Assembly: GCF_020524285.1 (NCBI RefSeq)
Contig: NZ_JAIVKX010000009.1
Coordinates: forward strand, 62,001-126,000
Source of the DNA: Alloyangia pacifica
Lineage (GTDB): Bacteria > Pseudomonadota > Alphaproteobacteria > Rhodobacterales > Rhodobacteraceae
Length of the DNA stretch: 64,000 nt
Reading direction: 5' to 3'
The notes under the pieces are model-generated. The model did not search any database, had not been told where the DNA came from, and saw only the letters and a list, made by a program, of their open reading frames with translations. Shown one piece after another: positions 1 to 17,902 of this stretch (position 1 is its first letter; the number at the start of each line of letters is the position of its first letter). The position numbers and the translations under genes were made by a program.

Positions 1-1832
1 TGCGCGAGTTCATGCGCGCCGAGGCTTTCATTTCGGCCAAGGTCGCGCCGGGCAAGGAGCAGGAGGGCGCCAAGTTCTCCGACTATTTCGACCACCGCGA
101 GAAATGGGCCGATATCCCCTCGCACCGCGCGCTGGCGATCCTGCGCGCCTCGAAGGAGGAAGTGGTCACCGTCGACATCGCCCCCGACCCCGAGACCTCG
201 ACGCGCCGCGGTGAGGACATCGTGGCCACCGCCATCGGAATCCCCGGCAATGCCCCCGGCGACCAGTGGCTGCGCGGCGTTGCCGAGTGGACGTGGCGGG
301 TGAAGCTGAGCCTGTCGATGTACGTCGACCTGATGACCGAGCTGCGCCGCCGCGCCCATGAAGAGGCGATCAACGTCTTTGCCCTCAACCTCAAGGACCT
401 GCTGCTCGCCGCCCCGGCTGGCTCGAAGGCGACGCTGGGCCTCGATCCGGGCATCCGCACCGGAGTGAAATGCGCCGTGGTGGATGCCACCGGCAAGCTT
501 CTGGATACGGCGACGATCTACCCGTTTCAGCCGAAGAACGACACGCGCGGCGCCACCGCCACGCTGATGGAGCTGATCGCCCGCCACAAGATCGAGCTCA
601 TTGCCATCGGCAATGGCACCGCCAGCCGCGAGACCGAGCGCCTCGTCGGCGACGTGCTGAAACTGCTGCCCGCCGCGGTGAAGAAGCCGACAAAGGTGGT
701 GGTGTCCGAGGCCGGCGCCTCGGTCTACTCCGCCTCCGAAACAGCGGCCAAGGAATTCCCCGATCTCGACGTCAGCCTGCGCGGCGCCGTGTCCATTGCC
801 CGCCGCCTGCAGGATCCGCTGGCCGAACTGGTGAAGATCACGCCCCAGAGCATCGGCGTCGGCCAGTACCAGCATGACGTCGACCAGCGCAAACTGGCGC
901 AGTCGCTCGAGGCGGTGGTCGAGGACGCGGTGAACGCCGTGGGGGTCGATCTCAACACCGCCTCCGCGCCGCTGCTGGCCCATGTCGCGGGCCTCGGCCC
1001 GTCGTTGGCGCAGTCCATCGTCAGCCACCGCGACAGCACCGGCGCCTTTCCCTCGCGCAAGGCGCTGCTGAAAGTGGCGGGGCTGGGGCCGAAGGCCTTC
1101 GAGCAATGCGCCGGCTTCCTGCGCATCCGCGACGGCATCGAGCCGCTGGATGCCTCCTCGGTGCACCCGGAAGCCTACGGCGTGGCGCGCAAGATCGTCG
1201 CCGCCTGCGGCCGCGACATCCGCCAGATCATGGGCCAGCCGCAGGCGCTCAAGGGCCTGCGCGCCGAGGAGTTCGTCGACGGCGCCTTCGGCCTGCCCAC
1301 CGTGCGCGACATCCTGTCGGAGCTGGAAAAGCCCGGCCGCGATCCGCGCCCCGACTTCGTCACCGCCAGCTTCACCGATGGCGTCGAGGAGATCACCGAC
1401 CTGCGTCCCGGCATGATGCTCGAGGGCACGGTGACCAACGTCACGGCCTTCGGTGCCTTCGTCGACATCGGCGTGCACCAGGACGGGCTGGTGCATGTCA
1501 GCCAGCTTGCCGACCGTTTCGTGAAGGATCCGCACGAGGTGGTGAAGGCCGGCGACGTGGTGAAGGTCCGCGTCACCGAGGTCGACGTGCCGCGCAAGCG
1601 GATCGGCCTGTCGATGCGCAAGGATGGCAGCGGCCGCGAGGCCGCGCAGGAACGGCGTGGGGCGCCCGACAGGGGCGCGCAGGGCAAGGGTGGCCCGAAG
1701 GGCGGGCCTGGTGGCGGCCGGGGCGGCAAGGGCCCGCGGGGACCGATGAACGCCGGGCCGAAGGACGGCTCGGGCGGCGGTCAGGGCGCGCTCGGCGCGG
1801 CGCTGATGGACGCGATGAAGAAAAAGCACTGA
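1..1832 (+). CDS. tex: Tex family RNA-binding transcription accessory protein (5' end missing)
   Basis: This is the C-terminal three quarters or so of Tex, a cytoplasmic RNA-binding protein linked to transcription. The reading frame is open to the left edge, so the true start lies outside the window; family members are about 770 residues and about 610 are seen here. Counting from the first in-window Met (base 12), the YqgF/RNase H-like domain begins near 141 ([11 protein letters not shown]). A helix-hairpin-helix region with two AGLGP motifs lies near 325-370. An S1 RNA-binding domain near 470-540 carries [16 protein letters not shown]. The last 60 residues or so form a Gly/Arg/Lys-rich basic tail, common in alphaproteobacterial Tex. 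The identification is firm; only the N-terminal domain cannot be judged. Confidence 0.95.
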
Positions 1833-11174: not shown

Positions 11175-12542
11175 TCACGCGGGTTCGACCTGCGCCTCGC
11201 TCCGGGTCAGTTGCAGCTTTTGGTAGGACGGCGGGCGGATATCCAGCACCCGCCCCTCGCGCACCAGAACCCGATCGGACTGCGGGCGGGCGATGAGCTG
11301 GTCGAGGCTCCATGCCTCGAGCACCATGAAATCGGCCCGCCGCCCCACACCGAGGCTGCCCGCCTCGACGCCGCAGATCGCCGCCGGGGCACTGCCCGCG
11401 AGACCGGCGCTGTCCCCGAACGGATGGTCGAGATGGCAGATCCGCACCGCTTCGCGCCAGGTGTCGAGCATGTCGTGATCGCCGTAGGCATAGAAGGGAT
11501 CGCGGCAATTGTCCCCGGCCACCGCCACCGGCACGCCCGCGGCGCGCAGCTCGTGGATCGGCATCACCCCGCGCCAGCGCGGCGTGCGGCCGGGAACCCG
11601 GTCCTGCAGGTACATGTTGACCGTCGGCAGGGTGATCAGCGAAAGCCCCGCCTCTTTCACCAGCGCGATGGTGGCGTCCATCTCCGCCTCGGGCAGACGC
11701 GCCAGCGAGCAGCAATGGCCGCAGGTCACCCGGCCCTCGTAGCCGTGGCGGATCGTGGCACGGGCCACCTGCGGAAGGGCATCGGCCTCGGCGGCCTCGT
11801 CGACGTGCAGGTCGAGATCGAGGTCGCGCTCCTTGGCCAGCGTGAACACGCGGTCGAGCAGAGCGTCGATGTCATCGAGCGAACCATGCGTGCCGCCCGA
11901 GGCGCGGGTGACGCCGCCGAGCAGCCCGCCATGCTGCGCGACGATATCCGCCAGCTTGGGTGCGTAGTCGGTGCCCCAGGCGTCGAAGGGCACCAGCGCC
12001 GAGGCTTGCAGCGCGACACGGCCCTTCCATGCCTCGCGCACCTCGGAGAAAGCCCCCCAGACGGTTTCGCCCTGCCCTTCGTGGCTGTCGAGATGGGTGC
12101 GGATCGCGGCGACGCCATGCGCCTCGGCGCAGGACAGGCCGAAGTCCATGCGGTGGATCAGGTCGTCGTGCCGCCAATGGGCGATGCGGTCGCGGGTGGT
12201 GGCCTCGCGCGCGCCGGGATGGGTGCCGCCGGAGCTGGGCGCGCGGCCCAGCACGTGGCCCTTGTCGAGATGGGTGTGCGCATCGACCAGCATCGGCCAG
12301 ACGTGGCGCCCGCCGAGGCTCAGCCGCGGGACATCCGAGGCGATCCCTCCCGGCGCGGCGACGGCGGCGATGCGCCCCGCGCGGAGCAGCAGCTCGACGC
12401 AAGCGGTGCCGTCGGCATCCACCGGCGCGCCCGCGGGCGCGCCCTCGGGCAGCAGCGCGGCGGGGCAGCGCAGGTCGGTGAGCAGCAGGTCGGCGCCTGC
12501 CGCGAGCGCCTCGGCGAGGCGGCGGTGCATGTGGTTGGTCAT
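11175..12542 (-). CDS. Cytosine-deaminase-family amidohydrolase
   Basis: A 455-residue metal-dependent deaminase of the CodA type. The metal and catalytic residues are in place: HTHLDKG (residues 89-95), HVDE (246-249), GHC (275-277) and AGDN (342-345), corresponding to the HxH, E, H and D of E. coli CodA. The N-terminus is longer than CodA and has a cysteine near 26. It is the last gene of a minus-strand set with a LysR regulator, an oxygenase and an NMT1-type ABC importer that carries two purine-riboswitch-like RNAs. Cytosine is therefore not necessarily the substrate; an aminopurine or other amino-heterocycle is possible. The start has GGAAAG about 8 nt upstream. Confidence 0.82.
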   Translation of the reverse strand: MTNHMHRRLAEALAAGADLLLTDLRCPAALLPEGAPAGAPVDADGTACVELLLRAGRIAAVAAPGGIASDVPRLSLGGRHVWPMLVDAHTHLDKGHVLGRAPSSGGTHPGAREATTRDRIAHWRHDDLIHRMDFGLSCAEAHGVAAIRTHLDSHEGQGETVWGAFSEVREAWKGRVALQASALVPFDAWGTDYAPKLADIVAQHGGLLGGVTRASGGTHGSLDDIDALLDRVFTLAKERDLDLDLHVDEAAEADALPQVARATIRHGYEGRVTCGHCCSLARLPEAEMDATIALVKEAGLSLITLPTVNMYLQDRVPGRTPRWRGVMPIHELRAAGVPVAVAGDNCRDPFYAYGDHDMLDTWREAVRICHLDHPFGDSAGLAGSAPAAICGVEAGSLGVGRRADFMVLEAWSLDQLIARPQSDRVLVREGRVLDIRPPSYQKLQLTRSEAQVEPA

Positions 12543-12601: not shown

Positions 12602-13498
12602 TCAGCTCTCGCCCTGCCCGAAGTGGTCCTTGATCGCCTGCATGAAACCGTCCGCCGCCGAACTGAGCGCGCCGCGGCTGCGGTGCACAAGGCTCAGCCG
12701 CTGCCGTCCGGCGGCGGCCATCAGCGGCAGGAAGGCCAGATCGCCGTCGCGCAGTTCCTGGTCGACGTCGACGCGGTTGAGAAAGGTCACATGCGGCGGG
12801 CGGCGCACGAGGCGCTTCATCATCTCCGTCGAATTGGTTTCCACCACCGGCCGCAGGTCCGCATTGGCCGGGGCGAGATTCTCGATCAGCGGCCGCAACG
12901 ACAGCTGCTGCGAGGCCAGCACCAGCGGGTAGATCAGGCAGTCTGCGACGCGCACGTTGGGCTTGGCGGTGAGCGGGTGGCCGGGCGCGACCACCGCGCC
13001 GAGCCGGTGCTGGAAGACCGCCGAAAGCTGCATGCGGTTGTCCTCGGGCAGGTTGTAGCCAAGCCCGATCTCGGCCTCGCCCGAGGCCACCATTTCCATC
13101 AGCTCGGAGCGGTTGCAGACGGTCACCTTCAGCTCGACCCGCGGGTGGCGCTCGCAGTAGTCGGCCACCACATCGCCGAGCCGCCCTGCGGCGAGCGTCG
13201 CCATGGTCGCGACGGTCACCTCCCCATGCGACAGGCCCTTCAGCGCGTGGATGCGCGCCTGCAGCCGGTCGTGGCCCCTCAGCGTCTCGCGGATATGGGC
13301 GATCAACAGCTCGCCCGGGGCGGTCAGCTTGAGGCCGCGCGGCAGTCGCTCGAAGATCTGCACGCCGAAATCGGCCTCGACCTCGAGCACCTGGCGGTTG
13401 ACCGCGGAGGCGGCGACATTGAGTTCGCGCGCCGCCTTGCGGATAGAGCCCTGGCGGGCGACCTCGTCGATGTAGCGCAGAGCGCGGCCGTGCAGCAT
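12602..13498 (-). CDS. LysR-type transcriptional regulator
   Basis: A 298-residue LysR regulator. The N-terminal winged helix-turn-helix contains GSIRKAARELNVAASAVNRQ (about residues 17-36) and FERLPRGLKLT. The effector domain starts near 90 and has YNLPEDN and NSTEMM.RL motifs. The ATG at 13498 is preferred over an upstream frame opening at 13579 because GGAAGG precedes it and it gives the usual short N-terminus before the helix-turn-helix. It sits inside the minus-strand unit between the oxygenase and the deaminase, so it probably controls this pathway, perhaps in response to a pathway intermediate. No clear operator was found. Confidence 0.88.
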   Translation of the reverse strand: MLHGRALRYIDEVARQGSIRKAARELNVAASAVNRQVLEVEADFGVQIFERLPRGLKLTAPGELLIAHIRETLRGHDRLQARIHALKGLSHGEVTVATMATLAAGRLGDVVADYCERHPRVELKVTVCNRSELMEMVASGEAEIGLGYNLPEDNRMQLSAVFQHRLGAVVAPGHPLTAKPNVRVADCLIYPLVLASQQLSLRPLIENLAPANADLRPVVETNSTEMMKRLVRRPPHVTFLNRVDVDQELRDGDLAFLPLMAAAGRQRLSLVHRSRGALSSAADGFMQAIKDHFGQGES

Positions 13499-13583
13499 GG
13501 ACCTTCCGAAGCTGGGTCTCGCAGGGATCGAGGCCCTGCCCTTTTTCGTGATGTTGTCACCCGGAAGGCCCATGCTCAACGCC

Positions 13584-14585
13584 TTACTTCTTGGCAGCCT
13601 TGGCGGCGGCGAAGTTGGCGTTGATCCGCATAGTCAGGTAGTCGCCCGCGGTGATCGGCTCGTACTTGCCCAGCGGGCCCTGCATGACCGCGTCGCGGTT
13701 GGCCTGACAGAAGAACGGCAGCGACAGGCGGCGGCCCTTGTATTCGCCCTCGGCGGGCATGCGCACCCGGTGCAGGGTCGACTGCAGCTGGTCGTCCGAC
13801 CAGCGCATCAGCATGTCGCCGATATTGCAGGTGATGTAGCCGCGGCGCGGCGGCACGTCGGTCCAGGCGTTGGAGCCGGCGTCCTTGCCGGGGCAGACCT
13901 GCAGGCCACCTTCACCTTCCTTCTGGTGCAGGATGGTGAGGCAGTCGAAATCGCTGTGCGCCCCGGCGCGCCATGCCTCGAAGTCCTCGGGCTTGGCGTC
14001 CTCCATCGACATGTAATGGATGAGGCGCAGGGTCGACTGGTACTGGTCGGACTCCGGGTCATGCGCATGGGTGAAGAAGTCCTCCGGGAAGCCCATCTTC
14101 AGCGCGAAGCACGACAGGATCCGCATGCCCAGCTCCCAGTTCTGGCGCTCGAACTTCAGTGCACGCTCCTTGAAGCGGGGCAGTTCCTCTTCGGTCGGCC
14201 ATTTGCCCTCCATCAGCGGGCGGGTGACCTGGTAGCTTTCCTTGTTGTCCGGCGTACCGGTGGAGGGGCGCACCTGCGCCTTGAATTCCCAGCCCGCGTT
14301 GGTGCCCTTGGGCATCGGGTATTGCGCCTTCACCTCGGTCGGCAGTTCGAAGAACTCCCAGGCGGTGTCGAAGGCGGCGTCGATGTCTTCCTCGGGGATG
14401 CCGTGGTTGTAGACCTGGAAGAAGCCGATGCCGGTGGAAGCCTCCCAGAGCGCATCGGCGATCTCGTGCTTGCGGGTCTCGAAGTCCGACAGGTCGATGG
14501 CGGGGACTTCACGCTCGACGGTGCTGCCCATGCCGCCGATGGTGGTTTCCTTGTTCAGCTCGGCAAGGTCGTAGTTGGTGCTCAT
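13584..14585 (-). CDS. Isopenicillin-N-synthase-family 2-oxoglutarate/Fe(II) oxygenase
   Basis: A 333-residue non-heme iron oxygenase of the DIOX_N/2OG-FeII fold. The iron facial triad is visible as H210-x-D212 (GAHSDFD) and H272 (LHRVRMP); R286-x-S288 (RLSLP) fits the 2-oxoglutarate-binding RxS. Despite the family name, penicillin synthesis is unlikely. Fungal thymine-7-hydroxylase belongs to the same fold and works on a free nucleobase. Here the leader carries a copy of the same structured RNA that precedes the importer operon (14628-14666), followed by a 7-bp hairpin and GGAGAAAGC before the ATG. I infer a nucleobase (purine or pyrimidine) oxidation step; the actual substrate is unknown. 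Confidence 0.85.
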   Translation of the reverse strand: MSTNYDLAELNKETTIGGMGSTVEREVPAIDLSDFETRKHEIADALWEASTGIGFFQVYNHGIPEEDIDAAFDTAWEFFELPTEVKAQYPMPKGTNAGWEFKAQVRPSTGTPDNKESYQVTRPLMEGKWPTEEELPRFKERALKFERQNWELGMRILSCFALKMGFPEDFFTHAHDPESDQYQSTLRLIHYMSMEDAKPEDFEAWRAGAHSDFDCLTILHQKEGEGGLQVCPGKDAGSNAWTDVPPRRGYITCNIGDMLMRWSDDQLQSTLHRVRMPAEGEYKGRRLSLPFFCQANRDAVMQGPLGKYEPITAGDYLTMRINANFAAAKAAKK

Positions 14586-14604
14586 TGCTTTCTCCAAAGT
14601 AGGG

Positions 14605-14621
14605 TGCCGGAGGGTCCGGCA
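14605..14621 (-). promoter_or_regulatory. Hairpin between the riboswitch-like RNA and the oxygenase start
   Basis: On the minus strand TGCCGGA, loop CCC, TCCGGCA form a perfect 7-bp stem located between the aptamer-like element (14628-14666) and the ribosome binding site. It is a candidate expression-platform element. No U-run follows, so translational rather than transcriptional control is more likely. Confidence 0.45.
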
Positions 14622-14627
14622 GGGTGG

Positions 14628-14666
14628 GGAGCAATGTCCGGGCCAGGGCCTGACTGCTTCTACTCC
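14628..14666 (-). promoter_or_regulatory. Candidate NMT1-motif (xanthine-class) riboswitch, copy A, before the oxygenase gene
   Basis: Reading the minus strand: P1 GGAG/CTCC; an internal loop with 8 nt (TAGAAGCA) on the 5' side and 4 nt (ATTG) on the 3' side; P2 GTC/GAC; a second internal loop (A opposite CG); P3 GGC/GCC; and tetraloop CCTG. Copy B at 17540-17579 has the same loop nucleotides (R at one position) but a changed P1 pair (CGAG/CTCG) and a different P3 (GGAT/ATCC). This is covariation expected of a conserved RNA. The size of about 40 nt and the link to an NMT1/THI5-type importer fit the NMT1 motif, reported to bind xanthine-type purines. The class assignment is from memory of that motif, not a covariance-model search. 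Confidence 0.65.
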
Positions 14667-14676
14667 GGGGGATGCA

Positions 14677-14696
14677 CCGGGCGGCTCGGCGCCCGG
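14677..14696 (-). terminator. GC-rich hairpin just after the ABC permease gene
   Basis: CCGGGCG (14677-14683) and CGCCCGG (14690-14696) form a 7-bp stem with a 6-nt loop. It sits 11 nt past the permease stop and just before riboswitch copy A. It could weaken read-through from the transporter genes into the oxygenase gene; no T-run is present. Confidence 0.4.
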
Positions 14697-14707
14697 CACG
14701 GATAGGG

Positions 14708-15535
14708 TTATCGCTTGCGCGGCAGGCTCCACGGGAAGAGCAGCTTCTGCGCCCAGCTCACCGCCTGGAACAGCGCCAGCGACATGGCGGCGAGCACGAA
14801 GAGCCCGGCCCAGGCCTGCGGCAGCTTGAACATCGAGGTCGAGAACTGGATGAAGTAGCCGACGCCCGCGTCCGAGGCGCAGAACTCGGCCACCACCGCG
14901 CCGATCACCGCCAGCGTCACCGAGATCTTCAGCGCCGAGAAGATGTAGGGCACGGCGAAGGGAAGCCGGATCTGGGTGATCTCTCGGAAGGCCGGGGCAC
15001 GCAGGCTGCGCGACAGCTCGATGAGTTCCGGCGGCGTGGCGGCAAGGCCGGTGGCGGTGGAGACCACCAGTGGGAAGAAGCAGATCAGCGTGGTGATGAC
15101 GATGCGCGGCGCGTCGCCGGCGCCCAGCACCACGATGATGATCGGCGCGATGGCCACGACCGGCGTCGACTGCACGATCACCAGCAGCGGGTAGAGCGTG
15201 CGGTTGAGCGCGGGCGACCGCACCAGCGCGATGGCCAGCGGGATGGCGATGGCGATGGCCAGCGCGAAGCCCAGCAGGGCCACCCGCAGCGTCGCCCAGA
15301 CGTGGCCGGCCCAGCGTTCCGCCCCGATGCTGGGAAAGGTCGAGAAAATCGAGCTCGGCGCGGGCAGCAGGTAGCTCGGGATGTTCAGCGTGCGCGCGGC
15401 AAGCTCCCAGAGCGCCACCGTGCCGAGGATGGTCAGGATCGCCGCGACACCCGGCGCTGCGAGGATGCGGCGCAGGTCGGGGCGTCTGCCCTTCGTGCTT
15501 TCGGGCTTGGAAAAATCTGGCATCGAAAGGCTCAT
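14708..15535 (-). CDS. ABC transporter permease (SsuC/TauC type)
   Basis: A 275-residue inner-membrane permease with about six helices and the cytoplasmic coupling-helix (EAA-like) motif SLRAPAFREITQIRLP near 195. It belongs to the BPD_transp_1 group that works with NMT1/THI5-like binding proteins (nitrate, sulfonate, taurine and nucleobase-precursor importers). Its ATG overlaps the stop of the ATPase gene (TGATG), so the two are co-translated. With the purine-riboswitch-like RNAs in this operon, a xanthine-type purine is my favoured substrate, but this is inference. Confidence 0.88.
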   Translation of the reverse strand: MSLSMPDFSKPESTKGRRPDLRRILAAPGVAAILTILGTVALWELAARTLNIPSYLLPAPSSIFSTFPSIGAERWAGHVWATLRVALLGFALAIAIAIPLAIALVRSPALNRTLYPLLVIVQSTPVVAIAPIIIVVLGAGDAPRIVITTLICFFPLVVSTATGLAATPPELIELSRSLRAPAFREITQIRLPFAVPYIFSALKISVTLAVIGAVVAEFCASDAGVGYFIQFSTSMFKLPQAWAGLFVLAAMSLALFQAVSWAQKLLFPWSLPRKR

Positions 15536-16311
15536 CAGGCGGCGTCCTTTTGCAGCAGCAGGTCCCGCAGGTGGGCGGCAAGCTCGGTCACGGCGGGATC
15601 CTTGATCGTCTCGCGACCGCGCGGGCGGGCGACGGGGACCGGCAGCTCGGTCAGCACAGAGCCGGGGCGGCCGGTCATCACCAGCACGCGGTCGGCCAGC
15701 AGCGCCGCCTCGCTGACGGAATGGGTGATGAAAACCACGGTCTTCGGCCGCTCGCCGAAGATGCGCAGCAGATCGAAGCCCATCTCCTCGCGGGTCAGCG
15801 CGTCGAGCGCCGAGAAGGGCTCGTCCATCAGCAGGATATCGGGGTCCATGTGCAGCGCGCGGGCGATGCCGACGCGTTGCTGCATGCCGCCCGACAGCTC
15901 GTCCGGCAGACGCTTGCCGAACCCCTCGAGCCCGACCATGCGCAGCAGCTCATGCGCGCGGTCGCGGTCGTGGCTGCCCACCCGTCCGCGCTTGTGGCGG
16001 ACGGGGAACATGACGTTGTCTTCGATGGTGGCCCAGGGCAGCAGCGTCGGCTTCTGAAAGACAATGCCGATGTCCTCGCGCGGGCCGGTGACCCGCCGTC
16101 CGAACACCTCGACCGTGCCCAACGTGGGCTCGAGCAGTCCGGCGATCATGCGCAGCAAGGTGGACTTGCCGCAGCCCGAGGGGCCGAGCACGGCAAGAAA
16201 CTCGTGCCGGGCGACCTCGAAGCTGACGTTGCGCAGGGCCTCCAGCCGGCCCGAGCCGGTCTCGAAGACCTGGCCCAGCCGGTCGAAGCGAATGGCGGCG
16301 GGTGTTTGCAT
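15535..16311 (-). CDS. ABC transporter ATP-binding protein (SsuB/TauB type)
   Basis: The 258-residue ATPase subunit of the same importer. Walker A is GPSGCGKST (residues 43-51), the signature is [15 protein letters not shown], and Walker B is [12 protein letters not shown], followed by a switch-region THSVSEA. Length and composition match nitrate/sulfonate-type ATPases. Both ends overlap the neighbouring genes by one base (TGATG), the tightest coupling in this operon. Confidence 0.92.
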
Positions 16312-17303
16312 CAGCCTTCCCCGCCGGGCTGGAAGCTGCGGGTGACGAAGACCTCGGGGTCATGCGCGGCCTCGTCGAGCCCCTGCGCGGCGGCAACGCG
16401 GGTCCAGGTCGCGGCAAGACGGCCCGGCTCGAAGACGCCGAGACCGTCGTCTTCGGTCACCTCGTTGAACACCAGCCCCAGCATGTCGTTCAGCGAGCCG
16501 AGCACATCGCCATGCTCCAGCTCGGGCACCATGTTGACCACCGATTGCGCGGCCTCGTCGGGGTTGGTCCGGCAAAACTCGATCGACTTCTTGAAGGCGG
16601 CGACGAAGCGCGCGGCCACCTCGGGGCGCTCCGCGAGGAATGCGTCATTGGCATTCAGCGAGGCGGAGTAAAGCTCGAGCCCGGCGGCAGACCACGGCAG
16701 CGCGATGATTTCCTTGCCCGCGTCCTTGCCCTGCCCGGTGTAGCGCGAGAGGTCGGTCATCCAGGCGACGATGCCGTCGACCTGCCCGGTCATCAGCATC
16801 GGCCCGAGCGCGCCTGCGTCGGCCTTGGTCAGTTCGAAGTCGTCCTCGGTCAGCCCCACGTCCTTCAGCACCAGCGGAAGGTAGACGTTGGACGAGGTGA
16901 AGGGCGAGGTCGCGATCTTCTTGCCCTTCACGTCGGCAACGCTGTCAAAGCCGCTGTCCTTGACGGTGTAGAACGCGTGCGGGCCCTTGTTGAACACCGA
17001 CAGCACCGAGGTGACGCCGACGCCTTCCTGCGCCTTGGCGGCCATCAGCGCGCCGATGTCGGCCATGCCGATATCCGACGAACCGGCGGCAAGGCGCGAG
17101 ATCGCATCCGACGAGCCGCGGCCCGAGGCGATGGTCACGTCGAGACCCGCGTCGGCGCAGAACCCCTGGTCGACGCAGACGTAGATCGGTGCCTTGTCGC
17201 CGCCGGGCAGCCAGTCGAGCTGGTAGGTGACCGGATCGCCGGCCAGCGCGGTGCTCGCGGTGAGCGCGAAACCGAGGGCCGTGAGCGTGGTGGATTTGGT
17301 CAT
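16311..17303 (-). CDS. NMT1/THI5-like ABC transporter substrate-binding protein
   Basis: A 330-residue periplasmic binding protein with a signal peptide (residues 1-20, ALA cleavage). The mature start [17 protein letters not shown] is typical of NMT1/THI5 (COG0715) proteins; [18 protein letters not shown] follows, with a hinge-region segment APG-like around 170. The ATG at 17303 is chosen for its signal peptide and the GGGAGAGG about 9 nt upstream; the frame extends further but reads as non-protein. Proteins of this group bind varied heterocycles, including pyrimidine precursors and probably xanthine. A candidate xanthine-class riboswitch lies upstream (17540-17579), with a small Cys-rich ORF in between. 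Confidence 0.88.
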
Positions 17304-17320
17304 AATGAAGGGGCCTCTCC

Positions 17321-17509
17321 CTAGTGTGCTGTTTTGTTGGACAGTTGCAGGTGGTCGATCTCGGCCTCGCGGACACCCTCGGAGAGCATCCGCGCCCGGG
17401 CACAGCGCCGCCGTTCCGGATCCGCGCACATCAGGCAGGCCCGGCACTTATGCGCCAAGAGATCATGGTTTTGTATTTTATCGTTACCGAGCAGGTGGTT
17501 GCTGGTCAT
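17321..17509 (-). CDS. Small Cys-rich protein (62 aa), hypothetical
   Basis: A 62-residue ORF whose stop lies 17 nt before the binding-protein start and whose ATG lies 31 nt after riboswitch-like copy B. That is where the first gene of a riboswitch-controlled operon would be. The middle holds KCRACLMC followed by a further Cys eight residues on, a pattern suggesting zinc or iron-sulfur binding, flanked by basic residues and a charged C-terminal helix. Upstream is only a weak GAGG. I do not recognise a family; short Cys-rich proteins of this sort are common in Rhodobacteraceae. It may instead be a non-coding leader. Confidence 0.45.
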   Translation of the reverse strand: MTSNHLLGNDKIQNHDLLAHKCRACLMCADPERRRCARARMLSEGVREAEIDHLQLSNKTAH

Positions 17510-17539
17510 GTCTGGCCTCGTCAGAGTCGGAACTACTGG

Positions 17540-17579
17540 CGAGCAATGTCCAGGATCGGATCCAGACCGCTTCTACTCG
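17540..17579 (-). promoter_or_regulatory. Candidate NMT1-motif (xanthine-class) riboswitch, copy B, before the importer operon
   Basis: Reading the minus strand: P1 CGAG/CTCG; internal loop TAGAAGCG opposite ATTG; P2 GTC/GAC; second internal loop T opposite TG; P3 GGAT/ATCC with loop CCG. Compared with copy A, all loop bases that should contact a ligand are kept while P1 and P3 change in a compensatory way. It is the leader of the unit that includes an NMT1/THI5-type binding protein, the gene type for which the NMT1 motif was named. The ligand is inferred; the sign of regulation cannot be read from the sequence. Confidence 0.68.
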
Positions 17580-17902
17580 TGGCCTCATTTATGGAACGCG
17601 CAAACCCGGCCAATCAACGGGTTTTTCGCAGATCTCACAGCGCATGTTTTTTGAACAATTCCCGAGGAGCAAATACACCATTCTCGAGCCAAGGCGGACA
17701 ATCTGTCAAAAATAGCTGGTTTTCAGACCTTGTTGCGGCGCCGCTCGGCAAAGCGCGCGTCGCGAAGTATGCCCGAATTTCATGCGTACGCATTTTCAGA
17801 ACGCTTTTGGCGACAAATTCTCGCGCCGCAGGTCGTTTCCGAGGGTCGCTGGAAGCAGGCTGAAAATGCGCACACCCGTGCCGGGCCGCGGCAGAATCCG
17901 GG
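17580..17902. other. Intergenic leader/promoter region, no gene seen
   Basis: These 323 bases lie between the end of the AEC transporter gene and riboswitch copy B. They are clearly less GC-rich than their surroundings (T-runs near 17640-17720) and must hold the promoter of the minus-strand importer operon. I see no protein-like frame, and no TPP-riboswitch core boxes. Confidence 0.6.

Follow-up and report, generated by a model that had tools for sequence, protein, structure and literature searches.

Two diverged xanthine (NMT1) riboswitch aptamers in a likely purine uptake and oxidation operon of Alloyangia pacifica

Two xanthine riboswitch aptamers and the genes behind them

The stretch of DNA analysed here, referred to as the window, comprises 64,000 nucleotides (nt) of Alloyangia pacifica (assembly GCF_020524285.1, contig NZ_JAIVKX010000009.1, positions 62,001 to 126,000), and on its minus strand lie, in this order, an RNA element (copy 1), a small open reading frame (ORF) of 62 residues, the genes for an NMT1/THI5-like binding protein and for the ATPase and the permease of an ATP-binding cassette (ABC) importer, a second RNA element (copy 2), and the genes for an oxygenase, a LysR regulator and an amidohydrolase (Table 1). 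An earlier note, made from the bases, had claimed a structured RNA twice on this strand and had assigned it, as probable, to the NMT1-motif or xanthine riboswitches, and both the claim and the assignment were borne out. When the whole window was searched against Rfam with cmscan, RF03054 was the sole family above its gathering score and its two matches were copies 1 and 2, each with an E-value of 1.4e-6. The same model found only these two copies over the whole genome and gave no match in any of 14 control genomes, and a crude search for the core plus the P1 stem found two instances in the window as against one in total across 200 dinucleotide shuffles. Both copies have the core TAGAAGC(G/A) opposite ATTG, a P2a stem of GTC/GAC and a second loop of 1 nt on one side and 2 nt on the other, just as the note had described, and between them P1 changes from CGAG/CTCG to GGAG/CTCC and P2b, which the note called P3, from GGAT/ATCC to GGC/GCC. 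These changes are compensatory as judged from the RF03054 model alignment and from reading the bases. According to the crystal-structure text of PMC8266621, whose numbering was checked against its construct sequence, the pocket nucleotides are U5, A6, G7, A8, A9, G10, C11, G35, A39, U40, U41 and G42, and because all of them occur in both copies, membership of the two elements in the xanthine (NMT1) riboswitch class is supported at the level of sequence. The class itself is already published (PMC7373994, PMC8266621) and the two copies are newly found members of it.

Table 1. Features of the locus, with positions in the window
Feature	Position	Strand	Basis or detail
Xanthine (NMT1) riboswitch aptamer, copy 1	17536..17583	-	RF03054 44.5 bits, cut-off 36; subtype G12/A37
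Xanthine (NMT1) riboswitch aptamer, copy 2	14624..14670	-	RF03054 44.5 bits, cut-off 36; subtype A12/A37
Promoter-like block CGTTG...CGTTCCATAAATGAG	17584..17619	-	Directly 5' of copy 1; by eye, not a tool prediction
Strand-exchange hairpin CTCGCCAG / CTGACGAG	17517..17543	-	Uses the 3' strand of P1; lies over GAG in the ribosome-binding site GAGG
Small ORF, 62 residues, HxCxxC...C	17321..17509	-	Alignment, pN/pS; no Pfam or NCBIfam match
NMT1/THI5-like ABC substrate-binding protein	16311..17303	-	PF09084 132.9 bits
ABC transporter ATPase	15535..16311	-	PF00005
ABC transporter permease	14708..15535	-	PF00528
Copy 2 leader	14592..14631	-	3' strand of P1, CTCC; inner hairpin TGCCGGA/TCCGGCA (14605-14621); ribosome-binding site GGAG (14592-14595)
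Isopenicillin-N-synthase-like 2-oxoglutarate-Fe(II) oxygenase	13584..14585	-	DIOX_N and 2OG-FeII_Oxy
LysR-type regulator	12602..13579	-	Domain match
Amidohydrolase, NCBIfam name cytosine deaminase	11175..12542	-	PRK07583 582 bits, cut-off 403

The class has been reported to bind xanthine (about 3.7 uM) and uric acid (about 25 uM) (PMC7373994), its ligands being xanthine, uric acid and 8-azaxanthine, and a crystal structure and binding mutants are available (PMC8266621). Its main neighbours are NMT1/THI5-like, isopenicillin-N-synthase-like and ABC-transporter genes (PMC7373994), and the gene families beside both window copies appear to fit this context of purine transport and oxidation. The window copies thus resemble the class in score, in secondary structure, in pocket nucleotides, in lying beside an NMT1/THI5-like transporter and an isopenicillin-N-synthase-like oxygenase, and in a translational type of leader; they differ from it in that two copies lie inside one operon, that they have diverged at position 12 and that copy 1 stands before a small ORF first. 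The nearest solved relatives of the binding protein are the THI5/THI13 pyrimidine-synthesis enzymes and a formylaminopyrimidine-binding protein, and those of the oxygenase are led by the ethylene/succinate-forming enzyme (116 bits) and thymine dioxygenase (102 bits); because of these relatives the operon looks like one for nucleobase uptake and oxidation. Two XdhB-type xanthine dehydrogenase subunits scored above cut-off elsewhere in the genome, and a search of the genome for uricase (PF01014) gave no match. Copy 2 precedes the oxygenase gene, which it had been claimed to lead, whereas the matching claim that copy 1 leads the importer stands only in part, as the importer does lie behind copy 1 but the small ORF intervenes between the aptamer and the gene for the binding protein. 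That all this forms a single operon, as was also claimed, is likely, short of being proven: the gene order argues for it, no terminator-like site was found on the minus strand between permease and oxygenase, and no conserved promoter-like block was seen by eye ahead of copy 2. Our main conclusion, to which we give a probability of roughly 80%, is that the two elements act as xanthine (NMT1) riboswitches on translation initiation, at two points within a single operon for purine import and oxidation. The riboswitches themselves were to be expected here, and it is the diverged pair, the small protein and a predicted ON action of copy 1 that are of interest.

Recurrence of the pair and its two subtypes

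The RNA was present in 10 of 148 relatives searched. Within the genus it was found in 7 of 20 genomes, and according to the search listing all seven carry two copies, so that a loss of the internal loop from orthologous leaders, which could have spoken against the note, was not found. Searches at larger scale used stricter filters by which weak matches can be lost, and these gave the RNA in 15 of 394 genomes of the family, five of them with two copies, and in 17 of 398 genomes of a phylum-wide draw, 12 of them with two or more copies, of which nine had close copies on opposite strands. A pattern scan of named genomes yielded at least 118 loci, false matches among them, and when 137 loci and the window were scanned by script 157 aptamer instances were obtained, duplicates included, while 17 loci yielded none. 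Eighteen pairs on the same strand, that of the window among them, were present in this set, and in 14 of the 18 an importer-side aptamer is followed by an oxygenase-side aptamer, as in the window; on the Rhizobium plasmid pRL11 even the gene order is that of the window, amidohydrolase included. Two elements close together have also been described in Hydrogenophaga intermedia (PMC7373994), but that pair is in opposing orientations whereas the window pair is serial on the same strand. A literature search on xanthine riboswitches that are tandem or act as ON switches, and on the function of this oxygenase, gave nothing relevant beyond the two class papers among the matches listed. Tandem riboswitches in general consist of two aptamers in one transcript, which would hold for the window pair too, but unlike tandem riboswitches that are stacked in one leader the window aptamers are 2.9 kb apart and each precedes its own start codon.

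At a few other loci two aptamers precede one oxygenase gene, at a distance of 258 nt in Roseomonas (L073 and L133) and of 213 nt in Tardiphaga (L033). At two more loci (L028 and L136) an extra aptamer-like element (GGAGTAGAAGCGGCAG...GGCATTGCTCC) was seen by eye between the first aptamer and the oxygenase, which would make two stacked aptamers for one gene; behind the last of them a hairpin lies over the ribosome-binding site.

The two window copies differ at position 12, which is G in copy 1 and A in copy 2, and agree in A37. This difference follows the adjacent gene widely. After removal of 11 rows (eight same-genome duplicates and three likely false instances) 146 aptamers were left, and a base other than G at position 12 was found in 39 of 59 oxygenase-adjacent aptamers as against 6 of the 87 others; G12 was found in 36 of 40 importer-adjacent aptamers, the remaining four being among those six. 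After clustering, the numbers were 20 of 28 on the oxygenase side and 5 of 39 for the others (Fisher p 1.6e-6). A second sample was obtained through the Rfam model from a scan of 45 loci, of which 38 were usable, and had at least one genome in common with the first; here the numbers were 15 of 21 and 0 of 17 by hand count. Among the same-strand pairs 15 of 18 have G12 upstream and non-G12 downstream, and the other three have G12 in both copies. U37 went together with non-G12 in 26 of 26 cases of the first sample, where the search pattern demanded A37 and U37 copies entered only as neighbours or via the Rfam search, and with two exceptions among 14 in the second sample, both of doubtful P2a register. 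The two copies are thus diverged aptamer subtypes as judged from their bases. Shared ancestry inflates all of these layout and subtype counts, and G12 is present in 20 of the 59 oxygenase-side aptamers and absent from 4 of the 40 importer-side ones, both of which weigh against our main conclusion. As a separate observation, U37 (for example L025:6082-6115, L034, L039 and L042) would place a U-U mismatch at the centre of P2a, and its occurrence is coupled to that of A or U at position 12.

Switching direction and competing explanations

How the two copies would act can be laid out as follows. Both would be on one transcript, and both probably sense xanthine (or uric acid), the same ligand being likely for the two because the ligand pocket is identical. 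Copy 1 would act on the start of the small cysteine-containing protein, and the importer behind it may follow by translational coupling, while copy 2 would control the oxygenase. The eight bases that follow ATTG in copy 1 can pair with eight that lie over GAG of the ribosome-binding site, seven of the eight being paired in the window, and as the hairpin so formed shares a strand with P1 the two are mutually exclusive. Because the hairpin uses this strand and covers the ribosome-binding site, it is predicted that copy 1 is an ON switch, in which P1 formation would release the site by strand exchange, and this prediction is opposite to the OFF control reported for the class. Pairing of 7 out of 8 was matched by 3% of shuffles of the spacer of copy 1 itself. 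When pairs were counted by script in 20 hand-picked related leaders, at least seven of the eight were found in 18, with loops of 5 to 11 nt; pairing-preserving changes were present at four hairpin positions, position 1 was unpaired in three leaders, and the hairpin of the Paracoccus leaders is next to the ribosome-binding site and not over it.

The effect of aptamer formation was also modelled. With the aptamer imposed, the accessibility of the ribosome-binding site rose by more than 0.1 in 11 of 14 small-ORF leaders and fell in one, and for copy 1 of the window the change was +0.42. In all short leaders taken together 14 of 32 clusters shifted by more than 0.1 towards ON, 2 towards OFF and 16 lay between, one of 33 clusters having been dropped because its site was too near the aptamer, and the mean shift was +0.12 compared to +0.03 with shuffled spacers (p = 0.018). 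The complementarity of P1 to the ribosome-binding site was significant by permutation (p = 2.5e-4 with 33 clusters and 69 short leaders; p = 0.011 for the extension only). Nine locus-strands (eight duplicate genomes and one likely false) were dropped before both runs, and start codons were chosen by script, some of them being uncertain. However, the 3' strand of P1 was no more complementary to its own sites than to ribosome-binding regions of unrelated genes (p = 0.27, 36 clusters; 150 regions per cluster drawn from 698), a control from which L034, L075, L081 and L125 with uncertain starts, leaders longer than 130 nt and one of 37 clusters were also dropped. A class-wide ON action through this complementarity is not supported by the control, and because of it we keep the argument only at the level of the clade, for copy 1. 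The conserved TTGCTC as a general anti-ribosome-site sequence was likewise rejected, native and control means being equal.

Besides this control, several findings weigh against the scheme as laid out above. Position 5 of the hairpin is a C-A mismatch in the window and in its relatives of the genus, the hairpin is absent from 2 of the 20 related leaders, and longer upstream sequence lets the bound form of copy 1 still pair part of its ribosome-binding site. For copy 2 the modelling was flat (seven leaders, mean +0.04), although in the unconstrained fold GG of its ribosome-binding site is buried in CCGGAGUAG/CUACUUUGG. The class, moreover, has been reported as OFF, at translation initiation, from a Hydrogenophaga intermedia reporter in E. 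coli in which the wild type was low and a binding-dead mutant high (PMC7373994). We put the ON direction of copy 1 at slightly better than even. The obvious competitor is that both copies are ordinary OFF switches, by which xanthine or urate, as product feedback, would lower the translation of both importer and oxygenase through a nearby ribosome-binding site that is buried or sterically blocked, and we regard this as a serious contender that falls somewhat short of even odds. It draws on that reporter, on the negative result with unrelated genes and on the copy 2 modelling, which does not favour ON. It has to contend with a copy 1 hairpin that excludes P1, covers or abuts the ribosome-binding site and is kept in nearly all related leaders, and with modelled shifts that go towards ON far more often than towards OFF, and the published reporter compares the wild type with a single mutant in two media, no ligand titration being described in the results and methods text.

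The divergence at position 12 bears on the scheme above and on two less likely explanations. A G12A change has been reported to weaken xanthine binding 7-fold, G12 being not strictly conserved (PMC8266621), and because the two copies differ at just this position two thresholds are plausible within that scheme, with copy 2 probably responding at the higher concentration, since binding by the crystallised homologue is weaker with G12A. The window copies have G13 where the crystallised RNA has U13, so that the 7-fold figure may not apply to them. A staged control built on the two subtypes (G12/A37 and non-G12, often U37), in which importer and small cysteine protein would be turned ON first through the tighter aptamer and the oxygenase later through the weaker one, is a tentative proposal that we consider rather unlikely; if true, the class could no longer be viewed as uniformly OFF. 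Still less probable is that the copies are tuned to different ligands, the non-G12/U37 aptamers of the oxygenase side preferring uric acid or another oxidised purine. Such tuning would fit the way in which positions 12 and 37 vary systematically with the gene next to them, and the near-absence of U37 with G12 (0 of 26 in the first sample; 2 of 14 in the second, both of doubtful register), but G10, U40, A39 and C11-G35, which touch or enclose the ligand, are the same in both window copies, position 12 is second-shell, and copy 2 of the window is A12/A37 and not U37. That the elements are chance or vestigial hairpins is very improbable. In its favour, one second copy among the seven genus members (genome G015; L019, match 1501-1547, minus strand) has 32.6 bits, below the Rfam cut-off, and a P2a mismatch of GAC/GAC, but the E-values, the conservation in the genus and beyond and the compensatory changes in P1 and P2b all speak against chance or decay. 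In the window, two versions of a small and structurally solved aptamer have diverged in nature within one likely operon, each standing before a gene of its own, so that the role of nucleotide 12 can be tested directly in vivo, and the pair also gives a clean test of ON action in the class.

The small protein and upstream sequences

The small ORF is the first gene after copy 1 and has a CxxCL...CA pattern. In 13 aligned sequences, window included, from Salipiger/Alloyangia relatives, Poseidonocella, Rhizobium, Agrobacterium and Paracoccus, C22, C25, L26, C36 and A37 are invariant. These sequences were selected behind aptamers by a pattern requiring HxCxxC and a later C, and because of this their position behind an aptamer and H20 are not independent findings; three more Rhizobium homologues (L051, L092 and L101) keep CxxCL and CA and have Q or N for the histidine. 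The ratio of nonsynonymous to synonymous changes (pN/pS) was 0.63 in frame compared to 1.22 and 1.11 in the shifted frames (eight sequences, one with a changed start), and in one genus member (G009; L007:1575-1763, plus strand) ATC replaces the ATG start codon of the other aligned sequences. When 385 genomes of the taxonomic class were searched with a profile, the window itself was the sole strong match and the other 12 were weak. The ORF was found in 42 plasmid records and is hypothetical or unannotated among the 30 matches listed. As it is so annotated and gave no match against Pfam, NCBIfam or PDB sequences, we call it an undescribed protein family, putatively tied to purine uptake. The predicted structure is helical and of moderate confidence (mean predicted local distance difference test score, pLDDT, 71.9) and its fold had no match in the PDB at E <= 0.001; that the protein serves as a metal-binding accessory factor is a guess.

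A GC-rich palindrome (GGGCGGC..GCCGCCC-like), kept in genus relatives and with no T run behind it, was noticed by eye between the stop codon of the permease gene and copy 2 (14671-14707, minus strand). At 17680-17709 there is a promoter-like site with TTGACA, which was dropped as it is not conserved. The promoter-like block before copy 1, ending in CATAAATGAG, was by eye near-invariant in the seven genus members, one of which has ATCAG, and in most of the seven a second block (TTGTTCAAAA-like) was seen by eye further upstream.

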